NCBI GenBank assembly: GCA_021204005.1
Contig: JAJQAD010000079.1
Span: 1-38,529, forward strand
Source of the DNA: Clostridiales bacterium
GTDB lineage: Bacteria; Bacillota; Clostridia; Lachnospirales; Lachnospiraceae
Length of the DNA stretch: 38,529 bases
Direction: 5' to 3'
The notes beneath the pieces were generated by a model, which saw only the letters and a program-made list of their open reading frames with translations, did not search any database and was not told where the DNA came from. Every line of letters starts with the position of its first letter. The first letter of the stretch is position 1. Positions 11,857-37,465 of the stretch are shown in pieces. The position numbers and the translations under genes were made by a program.

Positions 11857-12212
11857 TACGGACAAAAACTACTCATTTGCGAAAGATGTCCGTAGACACT
11901 GCCTCCCCATACGGACAAAAATGCCGTCTATACAAGTTTAGTCCGTATAACACAGGAAAATTTACAGACAAAAACGCCGTTTATGCAAGTTTAGTCCGTA
12001 CAGCATAATAGAATTTACGGACGAAAATGCCGTTTGAGCAAGTTTCGTCCGTATAGCACAGGAAAATTTACGGACAAAAACGCCGTCTATGCAAATTTAG
12101 TCCGTACAGCATAGAAAAACTTACGGACAAAAACGCCATTTTTGCAATTTTTGTCCGTATAGCACCGAAAAGTATACGGACGATACTTTCAATCAAATGA
12201 ATATTGTCCGCA
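11857..12212. repeat. Tandem array of seven 38-bp inverted-repeat units, exact 53-bp period
   Basis: Units start at 11857, 11910, 11963, 12016, 12069, 12122, 12175; consensus TACGGACAAAAACGCCGTNTATGCAAGTTTAGTCCGTA; 15-bp spacers. Confidence 0.95.
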
Positions 12213-12271
12213 CGATAGTTGTAAATAAAATCAAGCCCACTCTACTGCGTCATCTTTAGCGGCAAAACACT

Positions 12272-13879
12272 TCAACTCAACTCGGATTCTTTCCCCGCAC
12301 CTTTCTCCTCGGCCGCTTCACAATCCTCATTTTCCACAGTGACTTCCTCCACTGTCTTTTTGCTCTCTTTCTTCTCCGGCTGTGGCTTCGACCAGCGCCC
12401 GGACACTCTCGTAACGTTCGCGATAAACCGGGACAACTCTTCCGTGATCTGATCTTTTGTCAGACGCCACTCCCAGTTGCCGCCTGTGGTGGACGGGAAA
12501 TTGATCCGCGCCTCCTTGCCGAGATGCAGATAATCCTGAATCGGAATAATGCAATACTTTCCGATACTGAGCATCGCCAGGCGCACCAGATTGTCGCACA
12601 ACTGCTCATCATTATCCCAGAACCGGTTCATATAATTCTTAATATGCTCCCGTTCCCTCTCGGAAGCGCCGGTTACATACTGAAACAGTGTCTCATTGTC
12701 GTGGGTGCCGGTGTAGACGACACAGTTTGTCGTGTCATAATTGTGCGGCAGAAAAGCATTCTCACTGTCGCTGTCAAAGGCAAACTCCACCACCTTCATA
12801 CACGGATAACCGCTGTCAGCCACCAGCTTTTTCACGCTGTCGGTAACTACGCCAAGATCTTCCGCGATAATCTCAACATCCGGCACATTCTCCCCGATCG
12901 CCCGCATCAGCTCCATGCCGGGACCCGGACACCACTTGCCTTTTTTCGCGGTCGTCTCTCCGTATGGAATTGCATAATACTCGTCAAAGCCCCGGAAATG
13001 GTCAAAGCGCATCACATCGTACAGTGCAGAAGCATGCCGGATGCGGCCAATCCACCAGGCGTATCCTGTCTTTTTGTGATAGTCCCAGTCGTAAAGCGGA
13101 TTGCCCCAGAGCTGACCGTCCTCGGAAAAGAAATCAGGCGGAACTCCCGCCACAGACTTCGGATTTAAGTCCTCGTCAAACTGAAACAGCTGCAGGTTCG
13201 TCCAGGCATCTGCGCTGTCGTGCGCTACATAGATCGGCAAATCCCCGATGATGCGGATCCCCCGGCTGACCGCGTAAGCCTTCAGCTTTGTCCACTGCTT
13301 CATAAACCAGTACTGTACATGGGCATGGAAAGAAATATCATCCGCCAGCTCTTTCTTTGCCTCCGCGAGAGCCTTCGGATCCCGCTTTCTATAGGGTTCT
13401 TTCCACTCGTACCAGGCCTTCTTGTCGTGCTTATCTTTCAACGCCATAAACAGCGCGTAGTCCGGAAGCCAGTCCGCTTCCTGTTCCCGGAAAGCCTCAA
13501 AACCGGTCTGGTCCTTTTTCTTATCCCGCTGATATGCCTTACGCAGCAGCGGATAACGGTTTTCAAACTGTTTCCCGTAATCCACGTAGGAAGGATTCGT
13601 CCCCAGCTCGGCCGCGTCACACTCCTCTTTTGTCAGAAGCCCTTCTTCAATCAGATCATCCAGCGACACAAAATAAGGGTTCCCCGCAATCGTCGAATAC
13701 GGCTGATACGGAGAATCCCCGTAACTGGTGTGTCCCAGCGGCAGAATCTGCCAGAATGTCTGCCCGCTTTTTTTCAGAAAATCAATCCAATCGTATGCTT
13801 CCTTCGTAAATCCTCCGATCCCATACCGGGAAGGAAGACTGCTGACCGGAAGCAAAATTCCACTTGCTCTCATATACAA
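12272..13879 (-). CDS. malQ: 4-alpha-glucanotransferase
   Basis: RASGILLPVSSLPSRYGIGGFT, PLGHTSYGDSPYQPYS, FRGFDEYYAIP, YTGTHDNET. Confidence 0.95.
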   Translation of the reverse strand: MYMRASGILLPVSSLPSRYGIGGFTKEAYDWIDFLKKSGQTFWQILPLGHTSYGDSPYQPYSTIAGNPYFVSLDDLIEEGLLTKEECDAAELGTNPSYVDYGKQFENRYPLLRKAYQRDKKKDQTGFEAFREQEADWLPDYALFMALKDKHDKKAWYEWKEPYRKRDPKALAEAKKELADDISFHAHVQYWFMKQWTKLKAYAVSRGIRIIGDLPIYVAHDSADAWTNLQLFQFDEDLNPKSVAGVPPDFFSEDGQLWGNPLYDWDYHKKTGYAWWIGRIRHASALYDVMRFDHFRGFDEYYAIPYGETTAKKGKWCPGPGMELMRAIGENVPDVEIIAEDLGVVTDSVKKLVADSGYPCMKVVEFAFDSDSENAFLPHNYDTTNCVVYTGTHDNETLFQYVTGASEREREHIKNYMNRFWDNDEQLCDNLVRLAMLSIGKYCIIPIQDYLHLGKEARINFPSTTGGNWEWRLTKDQITEELSRFIANVTRVSGRWSKPQPEKKESKKTVEEVTVENEDCEAAEEKGAGKESELS

Positions 13880-32729: not shown

Positions 32730-32867
32730 TCAGTTTCCGGACTCGCGCAGCATTTCCTGCAAAATGTCCATCATATCAGTCAGATCGCGGTTGTAGATTG
32801 CGTCCTCCGCGTCATCGATCTCCATACTAGGCTGGAATTTTTTTAACTCTTCATCGAAATCTATCAT
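32730..32867 (-). CDS. Small 45-aa acidic hypothetical protein
   Basis: Manual translation MIDFDEELKKFQPSMEIDDAEDAIYNRDLTDMMDILQEMLRESGN; GAAAGGAG upstream; fills the gap between folC and the TPR gene. Confidence 0.75.
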   Translation of the reverse strand: MIDFDEELKKFQPSMEIDDAEDAIYNRDLTDMMDILQEMLRESGN

Positions 32868-34326
32868 AACGGCTCCTTTCCTTCATCAGCTCTCCTATAA
32901 AATACAGGGAACCGGTGCAAAACAATTTCTGTCCGGGTTTCTTCCGGCTTTGCATGACCCGGAACGCTTCCCCGCAATCGTCAAAGCTGTCTACCGTGTA
33001 TGTGAGCGGCCGGCTGCTGCTCTCCGAAAATAATTGGCGCAGCGATTCCGCCGGAACTCCCCGCTCCCCTTTCACTGTAGTGACTGCGACAGACTCCCAT
33101 CGGCAACCGGATGTCAGAAGACGAACGGCAGTACGCAGATCCTTTTCTTTTACCATGGAAAAGAGAAGCAGCGGCGGGCAGGGATCGTCAGCGGCAAGCA
33201 GACGCACAGACTGCACAAATGCTTCGATACCCGACGGGTTATGTGCCCCGTCAAAATAAATCTCCGGGAGCACCTCCTGCATCCGCCCGGGCCACACTGA
33301 GGCAGTCAGCCCCTGCTGTATGCCATCGTCATCCGCCAGGTCCAGCACATGCATAGCTTCAATGGCGAGCGCCGCGTTTTCCGCCTGATAACAGGCATGT
33401 CCCGGGACGGTCCACCTATGGCTTTTTCCATCATGTCTCATCCGATCATCCCACGCATCACTCTGCAGATGAACCTGCACATCACCCAGCGGCTGACACC
33501 GCACATCGTTCCGCGCCTGACCGGTTCTCATGCTTCCAGGCCACTGATCAGATACTGCCTTTTTTTCTGTTCTATCATAGGCAGTTGAAAATGAAAAATC
33601 AATACCCTCCTCTTTTATTTCACAATTTTTAATGTTTTTGTTAGAAATGGCATATTGCGGACATCCCAGCTCTGCTGCCCGACTCCGGATCACCTCCGCT
33701 GCCTCCGGCTCTCCCTCCCAGAACACAAGCGGTACACCGGGTTTTAAGATACCGGCTTTTTCCGCGGCAATCTGCGCAAGCGTGTCTCCCAGTATCTCCG
33801 TGTGCTCCAGGCTGATGGATGTGATCACGGTGAGTACCGGTCTGGGAAAGCTGTTTGTCGCGTCCAGGCGCCCGCCGAGCCCCGTCTCCAGCACAATGTA
33901 CTCTGCCTGCGCTTTTTCAAAGATTACCATACCCATTGCAAAAATAAACTCGAAAAAGGTAGGATGGTTCAGATTATTTTTCACCATCTCCTCAGAAACT
34001 GCCTTCACCAGCTCAAATGCCTCCAGAAATCCGGATACTTCGACCATTTTGCCGTTCACCTGAAACCGTTCCCGAATATCCACCAGGTGAGGCGAAGTAA
34101 ACATCGTCGCAGACTTTCCGCTGCAAAGCAGCATATGGTATAAAAAACAGCAGACGCTTCCCTTTCCGTTGCTGCCTGCCACATGGATGATTTTCCGGTC
34201 AAAACAGGGATCGCCCAAAAACGCGAGAAGCTTCCGGGTGTGATCCAGACTGTTCTTTTTCGTAAATTTGGGGAGGTCGTAGAGAAAATCTACGGCCTCC
34301 TGCATGGTGATACTGTTATTATTCAA
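32851..34326 (-). CDS. folC: Folylpolyglutamate synthase/dihydrofolate synthase
   Basis: HVAGSNGKGSVCCFLYHML, VLETGLGGRLDATN, SLEHTEILGDTLAQIAAEKAGI, YFDGAHNP; TTG start near 34326 (8 nt after GGAGGG) is preferred to the track ATG at 34356. Confidence 0.93.
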   Translation of the reverse strand: MNNNSITMQEAVDFLYDLPKFTKKNSLDHTRKLLAFLGDPCFDRKIIHVAGSNGKGSVCCFLYHMLLCSGKSATMFTSPHLVDIRERFQVNGKMVEVSGFLEAFELVKAVSEEMVKNNLNHPTFFEFIFAMGMVIFEKAQAEYIVLETGLGGRLDATNSFPRPVLTVITSISLEHTEILGDTLAQIAAEKAGILKPGVPLVFWEGEPEAAEVIRSRAAELGCPQYAISNKNIKNCEIKEEGIDFSFSTAYDRTEKKAVSDQWPGSMRTGQARNDVRCQPLGDVQVHLQSDAWDDRMRHDGKSHRWTVPGHACYQAENAALAIEAMHVLDLADDDGIQQGLTASVWPGRMQEVLPEIYFDGAHNPSGIEAFVQSVRLLAADDPCPPLLLFSMVKEKDLRTAVRLLTSGCRWESVAVTTVKGERGVPAESLRQLFSESSSRPLTYTVDSFDDCGEAFRVMQSRKKPGQKLFCTGSLYFIGELMKERSRYDRFR

Positions 34327-34417
34327 GAAACTCCCTCCTGCAGCTTCCTCTTTCATGAATAAGAAGCTTACTCATGCAAAACATACCAACACGTTCTTCC
34401 ATCAGCTATGCCCCGAA

Positions 34418-34666
34418 AACCCATCAATCTGGTATTTCAACTCATTTAATGGGTTTTCTTTTGCCTAGCCAACCCACTACCTGTAGGTTTTAACATATTC
34501 TATGGGTTTTCTTTTGCTCTGCAAACCCACTAATTTCAAAATATCATCTGTTTAGTAGGTTAACACTCCTGTTTTTTACATACTATTATTGTAATACTCC
34601 TATTTCTGTGGGTTTCCATGTTCTTTTTGTACAACCTTTTTCGCGATTTTCCTGTTTTTGTGGGTC
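34418..34666. repeat. Second tandem inverted-repeat array, 38-bp units on a 53-bp period
   Basis: Units at 34418-34455, 34471-34508, 34524-34561, 34577-34614 (AACCCA..TGGGTT, degrading along the array); a degenerate fifth unit ends near 34666, one base off register. Confidence 0.85.
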
Positions 34667-34819: not shown

Positions 34820-37465
34820 TTATAATAAACTCTTCAGCCGCGCTTCCACGTCCTCCATCATCGCGGTATATTTCTCCAGTTTTTCCTTCTCCGCAGCGAC
34901 TTTCTCCGCAGGCGCTTTGCTCAAAAATTTCTCATTTTTCAGCATGCCGTTGGAACGCGCCAGCTCTTTGACCAGTTTTGCTTTCTCCTTCTGCAGACGC
35001 TCCCGCTCTTTCTCCAGATCAACCAGCTCTTCCAGCGGCACGTAAACCACTGCATTGGGGATGACGACGGACACAGCGTCCTCCGGGATGCCGGTCTTGT
35101 CCGGCTGCACATGAATCTCCGCCGCGCTGATCAGGTTGCGGTAGACATCCTGGAACGCATCCAGACGCCTGCAGACATTCTCATCCTGGGACACCACATA
35201 GTAGCTGGCCTTCCGGCTGGGCGGAACGTTCATCTCGGAGCGCAGGTTGCGGACCGCGCGGACCAGCGCTTTGATGGCCTCGATGGAAACCTCCGCCTGC
35301 TCAAAATGCAGCGCTTCGTCGTACTCCGGCCAGGAGGTCAGCATAATGGTCTCCTCCTCCGGGCAAAGCGTGCAGTAAATTTCTTCTGTAATAAACGGCA
35401 TGAACGGATGGAGCAGCTTCAGCGCCTGCGCCAGAACCGTCTTTAAGGTCCACAGCGCCGCATTGGCCGCCGCAGGGTTTTCCTTTTTCTGGTTCAGACG
35501 GGTCTTGCAGATCTCAATATACCAGTCGCAGAATTCTTCCCAGATAAAATCAAAGACCTTCTGCACGGCAATACCGAGCTCGTATTTTTCCATGTTGTCC
35601 GTAACATCTTTTGCCAGCGTATTAACTTTGGATAAAATCCACTTATCCACCGGGAACAGTTCGTCCGTCGTCGGTTTCCATGGCTGGTCGTCGCCCAGAT
35701 TCATCATGATAAAACGGGACGCATTCCAGACTTTGTTGGCAAAATTCCGGCTGGACTCCACGCGCTCCCAGTAAAAACGCATATCATTGCCCGGCGCATT
35801 TCCTGTGATCAGCGTAAGGCGCAGCGCATCCGCACCGTACTTGTCGATCACTTCCAGCGGGTCAATGCCGTTGCCCAGGGATTTGCTCATCTTTCTCCCC
35901 TGGGAATCCCGGACCAGGCCGTGAATCAGCACCGTGTGGAACGGTTCCGTGCCGGTCTGTTCCAGCGCGGAAAATACCATGCGGATGACCCAGAAGAAGA
36001 TGATATCATATCCTGTCACCAGGACATCCGTGGGGTAAAAATACTCCAGCTCCTCCGTCTTTTCCGGCCATCCCAGCGTGGAAAACGGCCAGAGCGCGGA
36101 GGAAAACCAGGTATCCAGCGTATCCTCGTCCTGCTTTAAATGCGTGCCGCCGCATTTACTGCACTTGCAGGGTGTCTCCCGGGAGACAATCATCTCCCCG
36201 CAGTCCTCACAGTACCATGCCGGAATCCGGTGTCCCCACCAGAGCTGACGGGAAATACACCAGTCGCGAATATTCTCCAGCCAGTGCAGGTACGTCTTGG
36301 CAAAATTATCCGGGACAAACTTCAGCCGCCCGGTCTTGATTGCCTCGATGGCCGGTTTCGCCATCTCATCCATTTTCACAAACCACTGCGGCTTGATCAT
36401 CGGCTCCACTGTGGTCTTGCAGCGGTCATGGGTTCCCACGCTGTGCGTATGATCCACCACTTTCACCAGAAGCCCCATCTCGTCCAGCTTCTCCACAATG
36501 GCTTTCCGCGCCTCATAGCGGTCCATACCCTCGTAAATACCGCCGTTGGCGTTGATGGTCGCGTCGTCATTTAAAATATTGATTTCTTCCAGGTTGTGGC
36601 GTTTGCCTACCTCAAAATCGTTCGGGTCGTGGACCGGTGTGATCTTCACGCAGCCGGTTCCGAACTCCTTGTCCACATAGGCATCCGCAATCACGGGAAT
36701 CTCACGGTTCACGATGGGAAGCAGGAGTTTTTTCCCGATCAAATCCTGGTAGCGCTCATCCTCCGGGTTCACCGCCACAGCAGTATCGCCCAGCATCGTC
36801 TCCGGACGGGTCGTGGCAATCTCCACAAACCGTCCCTCCTCACCGATGATCGGATATTTGATATGCCAGAAATGTCCCGCCTGCTCCACATGCTCCACCT
36901 CGGCATCCGAGATGGAAGTCTGGCACACCGGGCACCAGTTGATAATCCGGGATCCCTTATAGATATAGCCCTTGTCAAAGAGGCGGACAAAAACCTCATT
37001 GACTGCCTTTGAGCATCCCTCGTCCATGGTAAAACGCTCGCGCTCCCAGTCCGCGGAGGATCCCAGCTTCTTTAACTGGCGTACGATCCGTCCGCCGTAC
37101 TCCTCCTTCCAGTCCCAGGCATATTTCAGGAACTCATCCCGGGTCAGATCCGCCTTGTCGATGCCTTTCTCCTTCAGGCTGGCGATCACCTTCACCTCAG
37201 TGGCAATGGCCGCGTGGTCCGTCCCCGGCTGCCATAATGCAGAGTAACCCTGCATTCTTTTATAACGAATCAGGATATCCTGCATCGTGTTGTCCAAAGC
37301 GTGTCCCATGTGAAGCTGCCCGGTGATATTCGGCGGCGGCATCACGATGGTAAACGGCTTCTTGCTGCGGTCCACCTCCGCGTGAAAATATCCGTTGTTC
37401 TCCCACTTCTGATAAAGTCGATCCTCGATTCCCTTCGGATCGTAGGTCTTGGCTAATTCTTTCAT
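34820..37465 (-). CDS. valS: Valyl-tRNA synthetase
   Basis: [48 protein letters not shown]-terminal coiled coil. Confidence 0.97.

Follow-up and report, generated by a model that had tools for sequence, protein, structure and literature searches.

The described repeats nearest in kind to those analyzed in this study are the BIME/REP arrays and REPINs, which are dispersed among intergenic regions, are built from inverted sequences in alternating orientation and with regular spacing, form tandem clusters and change in unit number. In REPINs, compensatory changes are observed (PMC3116915). CGTC-tagged palindromic repeats are also small and intergenic and have no dedicated transposase; they have 8–9 bp stems, 4–5 nt loops and CCA-like tails, with clusters being rare (PMC3733652). 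TIGR arrays are composed of 8–12-nt repeats and 9-nt spacers, the latter being guides, in units of approx. 36 nt, and adjoin a gene encoding a Nop-domain protein (PMC12045711).

We analyzed a 38,529-nucleotide stretch of DNA (the window) from the genome of a gut-type bacterium of the Lachnospiraceae, in which an array of short inverted half-sites occupies the folC–valS intergenic region. It is one of a set of arrays that share with REP/BIME repeats their dispersed intergenic placement and alternating orientation, as well as regular spacing, tandem clustering and changes in unit number. They differ from BIMEs and REPINs in that the half-sites are 7 bp long, have no stem of their own and show no compensatory pairing, the spacing of 31 and 22 bp is strict, there are two non-mixing classes (A and B), and no Y1 transposase was found in the source genome. 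The likeness to CGTC-tagged repeats lies in the small, palindromic, intergenic form and the lack of a dedicated transposase, and class A often reads CGTCCGTA; the stems, short loops, CCA-like tails and rare clusters set the CGTC-tagged repeats apart, and Firmicutes are not reported as hosts in the cited portions of their description (PMC3733652).

TIGR-Tas loci also contain a tandem array with two alternating distances, but their repeat/spacer layout does not fit the arrays described here, in which the period is 52–54 bp, the gaps are 24 and 15 bp and neighboring units are alike. The sopC partition site of the F plasmid consists of tandem repeats of approx. 43 bp, and in each of them a dimer binds to an inverted repeat. 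Our arrays resemble such centromere arrays in having an inverted repeat in each tandem unit; in contrast, there are about thirty of them, dispersed on the chromosome, with evenly alternating half-sites and no parA/parB neighborhood seen.

The array between folC and valS

The original prediction placed AACCCA left arms at 34418, 34471 and 34524 and GGGTT right-arm ends at 34455, 34508 and 34614; all of these coordinates are correct, and the 15-bp spacers TTCTTTTGCCTAGCC and TTCTTTTGCTCTGCA and the 38-bp units are present on the 53-bp period as described. The array (class B; 34418–34666; no strand is assigned to it, to its parts or to the other array of the window) comprises five such periods. 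It lies 5′ of a folC-like Mur ligase gene (32851–34356, minus strand; PF08245, PF02875) and 3′ of valS, encoding valyl-tRNA synthetase (34820–37465, minus strand; PF00133, PF08264, PF10458).

Units 1 (34418–34455; AACCCAT ... ATGGGTT) and 2 (34471–34508; AACCCAC ... ATGGGTT), each of 38 bp, are separated by a 15-bp spacer (34456–34470) that leaves the flanking half-sites 22 bp apart, and a second 15-bp spacer (34509–34523) precedes unit 3 (34524–34561; AACCCAC ... GTAGGTT). The arms decay rightward, as had been claimed, the left arms of units 4 (34577–34614) and 5 (34630–34666) reading TACATAC and TACAACC, and the right arm of unit 4, GTGGGTT, ends in register at 34614, the position predicted for it. 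We identified two further right arms: the degenerate GTAGGTT of unit 3 (34555–34561), which is exactly in register, and GTGGGTC of unit 5 (34660–34666), which is 1 bp short of it.

The autocorrelation of the array at lag 53 is 0.515, compared with 0.297±0.031 in dinucleotide shuffles (z approx. 7; none of 2000 as high), and thus the proposed periodicity stands. In 1000 dinucleotide shuffles examined at lags of 20–124, this value was never attained. The second-best lag of the array is 106. When 766 stretches of 249 bp across the window were compared, six attained 0.515 at any lag, all of them inside the two arrays.

The other array of the window (class A, TACGGAC/GTCCGTA; 11857–12213) adjoins a 4-alpha-glucanotransferase gene (12272–13879, minus strand; PF02446). 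The spacings of its 14 half-sites alternate between 31 and 22 bp with no exceptions. Tandem Repeats Finder (score 40) detected this array and missed the more decayed one between folC and valS.

Two classes of arrays and their distribution

A pattern search of the source genome (2.62 Mb in 247 contigs, 93% complete) yielded 55 exact matches to ACGGAC-N22..28-GTCCGT (reversed control, 4) and 22 to AACCCA-N24..30-TGGGTT (reversed control, 2). The stretches around these matches contain 31 contiguous arrays, 17 of class A (half-site TACGGAC) and 14 of class B (half-site AACCCAC). Each of the 27 arrays of sufficient length for the test had its best autocorrelation lag at 52, 53 or 54; the same geometry in a different sequence, claimed for the two arrays of the window, is therefore a genome-wide feature, and the period recurs in intergenic regions beyond the window.

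Counts of hexamer half-sites gave 143 of class A and none of class B in the A arrays, and 79 of class B and one of class A in the B arrays. Since the classes do not mix, with this one exception, the two arrays of the window represent two families on one scaffold. The consensus half-sites, TACGGAC-N-AAA-W (class A) and AACCCAC-W-AAA-W (class B), agree at 8 of 12 positions and at 4 of 7 in the core, a likeness that is only suggestive.

Of the gene pairs flanking the arrays, 20 are co-directional, three convergent and three divergent, and some arrays come to 10 bp or less from the end of a gene; therefore, neither terminator nor promoter placement stands out. Two class-A arrays at contig ends (the end of C21 and the start of C173) are probably a single array split in assembly, because one contig of the related genome G001 matches both. 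Other arrays hold runs of N, and it seems that short-read assemblies break at the arrays.

Class-A triple-half-site matches occurred in 10 of the 20 genomes of the source genus; the 41 genomes examined from other genera or families had none (reversed control, 0). Class B was present in four of the 20 (G000, G001, G006 and G017), each of which also carries class A. No such arrays were found in 373 kb of four array-less relatives scanned irrespective of arm sequence; 66-bp repeats inspected there were read as protein-coding.

Among genomes with a readable gap, only the source genome (G000) and G001 contain the folC–valS array, which in G001 is longer by approximately one 53-bp unit; in G006, whose valS is 98% identical, the gap measures 78 bp. 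At another locus, G001 carries an array (spacer of approx. 426 bp) in place of the 23 bp present in G000 and G006, with no target-site duplication evident on comparison of the filled and empty states.

In a scan of named genomes, the matches listed included other Lachnospiraceae MAGs, Ligilactobacillus ruminis DSM 20403, Gracilibacillus timonensis and a few Bacteroidales loci, and most of the remaining matches listed were single chance matches. There are 80 ACGGAC inverted pairs in L. ruminis (control 2; inner distance 29 bp, outer 22 or 33 bp) and 89 in G. timonensis (control 1; inner 32 bp, outer 19 bp), with a period of approx. 51 in both; other Gracilibacillus species have a few arrays, with their own interiors and a period of 51–52. 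The core ACGGAC is thus common to distant Bacillota, and its high-copy use in Gracilibacillus and L. ruminis argues for a conserved putative recognition.

The L. ruminis arrays (L432–L446) are of one to three units, and some have similar flanks at several loci (GCAGCACTGCATTTGGCAAAATCACTGCCG...), in the manner of a dispersed mobile element. Among the matches listed, five Bacteroidales loci (L181, L183, L213, L214, L222) show short GTCCGTAAA-N-TTTACGGAC arrays with a period of 50–51, either related or convergent. Viral contigs with pattern matches contained no such array, and BLAST searches for the arrays in viruses, plasmids and phages gave none.

Spacing, conservation and pairing of the half-sites

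In both classes the half-sites alternate in orientation and are placed 31 bp (inner distance, across the 38-bp unit) and 22 bp (outer distance, across the 15-bp spacer) apart. In class A, the inner distance is 31 bp in 268 units, 30 in 45 and 32 in 15, and the outer distance is 22 bp in 268 cases and 23 in 16; in class B, the inner distance is 31 bp in 40 units and 30 in 20, and the outer is 22 bp in 59 of 61. These distances correspond to approximately three and two helical turns, so that the half-sites would share one face of the helix; the fit to whole turns is good in the source genus and rough in L. ruminis and Gracilibacillus.

Between arrays, the sequence separating the half-sites has drifted: in class A the identity of interiors is 0.37 and of spacers 0.39 (0.32 when shuffled), and in class B 0.41 and 0.39 (0.37 and 0.35 when shuffled). 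Lengths this exact would be unexpected in such drifted sequence if descent were the sole cause, and they therefore point to selection on spacing. Neighboring units within a class-A array are 0.50–0.63 identical, versus 0.37–0.39 between arrays, and this likeness of adjacent interiors and spacers does not fit a CRISPR array, in which a constant repeat alternates with mutually unrelated spacers.

The 22-bp outer distance is the most rigid in the source genus, where the 38-bp unit varies by approximately 1 bp. For this reason GTCCGTA-N15-TACGGAC may be the better choice of unit, although rigidity runs the opposite way in L. ruminis. A whole-unit palindromicity score was uninformative as a descriptor, the symmetry being confined to the arms.

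Comparison of class-A ortholog pairs with relatives revealed a divergence of 8.5% in the 7-bp cores (somewhat biased, as cores were picked by motif in one genome), versus 23.8% in interiors, 29.0% in spacers and 12.4% in the adjacent flanks; this choice of cores is unlikely to account for the threefold difference between core and filler. The two class-B pairs show no clear difference (core 26.1%, interior 27.4%, spacer 30.1%), and core conservation is therefore claimed from class A.

In 96 non-redundant class-A units, pairing at mirror positions 8, 9 and 10 is seen in 30%, 51% and 36% of cases, compared with 34%, 50% and 39% expected, and core substitutions are without compensation, with a slight excess at position 1 only (82% versus 77% expected). 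Class B agrees in showing no covariation of mirror positions beyond the core. Consequently, a long hairpin is not the feature that has been maintained; a 7-bp stem lies outside the reach of covariation, because the core barely varies.

Candidate explanations for the arrays

The retention of class-A cores and of whole-turn spacing in the source genus, combined with drifting filler, would be expected of sites for a dimeric protein that binds duplex DNA cooperatively. We regard each array as a run of double-stranded sites for a putative sequence-specific DNA-binding protein, a reading to which we assign a probability of roughly 0.55. With all half-sites on one helix face, a dimer would bind one pair of inverted half-sites and neighboring dimers would stack cooperatively at the second fixed distance. 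The non-mixing of the classes suggests that each class has its own protein, the two being related but differing in their recognition residues. Unequal recombination may add or remove whole units, and copying may seed arrays at new intergenic loci.

The traits that the arrays have in common with REP/BIME repeats (intergenic dispersal, inverted pairs in alternating orientation, tandem clusters) would suit mobile elements of this kind, i.e. single-stranded hairpins moved by a RAYT (Y1) transposase whose gene would be flanked by the repeats, as would the occurrence of related arrays at unrelated loci and of many Y1_Tnp genes in array-bearing L. ruminis and Gracilibacillus. This origin is nevertheless improbable, because Y1_Tnp (PF01797) is absent from the 93% complete G000 and from the array-bearing G005 and G017, its presence within the source genus is not correlated with arrays, and the Y1 loci examined had no array. 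Moreover, the loops of such hairpins would be of 24 or 15 nt, versus 4–5 in CGTC REPs and 2–20 in GTAG REPs, and the arrays lack the compensatory changes of REPINs, mirror positions 8–10 pairing at chance. Hairpins acting in RNA, as terminators, processing sites or mRNA stabilizers, are an even poorer candidate. Both arrays of the window do fold better than shuffles (z of −4.5 and −4.3), but good folding follows from any inverted repeat and is not decisive; mirror covariation is absent, no terminator-like site was found in the folC–valS gap and no Rfam match to the arrays, the arrays occur on either the 5′ or the 3′ side of genes, in all three flanking arrangements, and the rigidity of both distances would be superfluous for RNA.

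Some L. ruminis copies combine similar flanks with varying unit number, and certain loci are filled in one species and empty in a close relative, as might be seen if a double-strand-acting transposase bound the inner or terminal repeats of a non-autonomous transposon and the arrays were its remnants. We give this little credence, since common flanks are not seen in the source genus, the empty site compared shows a replaced spacer with no evident duplication of a target, and no transposase recurs beside the arrays. Ordinary tandem repeats made by slippage and devoid of function would explain why units are alike within an array and why copy number shifts by units; they are strongly disfavored, because about thirty arrays with unrelated interiors agree in arms, both distances and period, and the search patterns gave up to 55 matches, compared with 0 to 4 for their reversed controls.

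For arrays bound by a protein, candidate roles are local DNA organization, insulation or silencing, or the persistence of the element itself; we think a structural intergenic role, as proposed for BIMEs, the most likely by analogy. Rather doubtful, in our estimation, is a broader version: a chromosome-wide system of protein-bound sites in Bacillota, present in two orthogonal copies in one genome, in which paralogous proteins, each on its own approx. 15 arrays, would organize or insulate intergenic DNA, much as dispersed insulator sites do outside the bacteria.

A cognate binding protein was not found in the BLAST comparison of array-flanking genes, which recur only as housekeeping families and include no common non-housekeeping gene; beside the arrays of array-poor genomes, L. 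ruminis and Gracilibacillus there was no obvious partner gene. The occurrence of the same spacing with different letters in one genome amounts to a natural experiment, in which the machinery must measure the spacing and recognize the letters, and that machinery becomes findable when the A and B arrays serve as controls for each other. The arrays would add to the repeats of Bacillota a system apparently independent of hairpins and RAYT transposases. No description of them was found by sequence or terms in the literature covered, from which subscription journals are largely missing, and breaks induced by arrays in short-read assemblies may help to explain an earlier oversight.

Other tandem repeats were observed in the genomes compared. 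In G001, an intergenic AACTACATAAACCCAGCACTATATGAGTTC-like repeat (L347:1990–2180) lies just downstream of a class-A array, and in a related MAG a 32-bp tandem array (ACAGTCTTGCAAAATAACAGTCTTATAAAATA; L147:3153–3449) is located near another. The array-less relative G012 contains a 54-bp tandem array (TACGCACAAGCAGATGAGTGCGAAATGCGTC...; L394:7603–7908) of a different layout, which adjoins a terminator-like hairpin.
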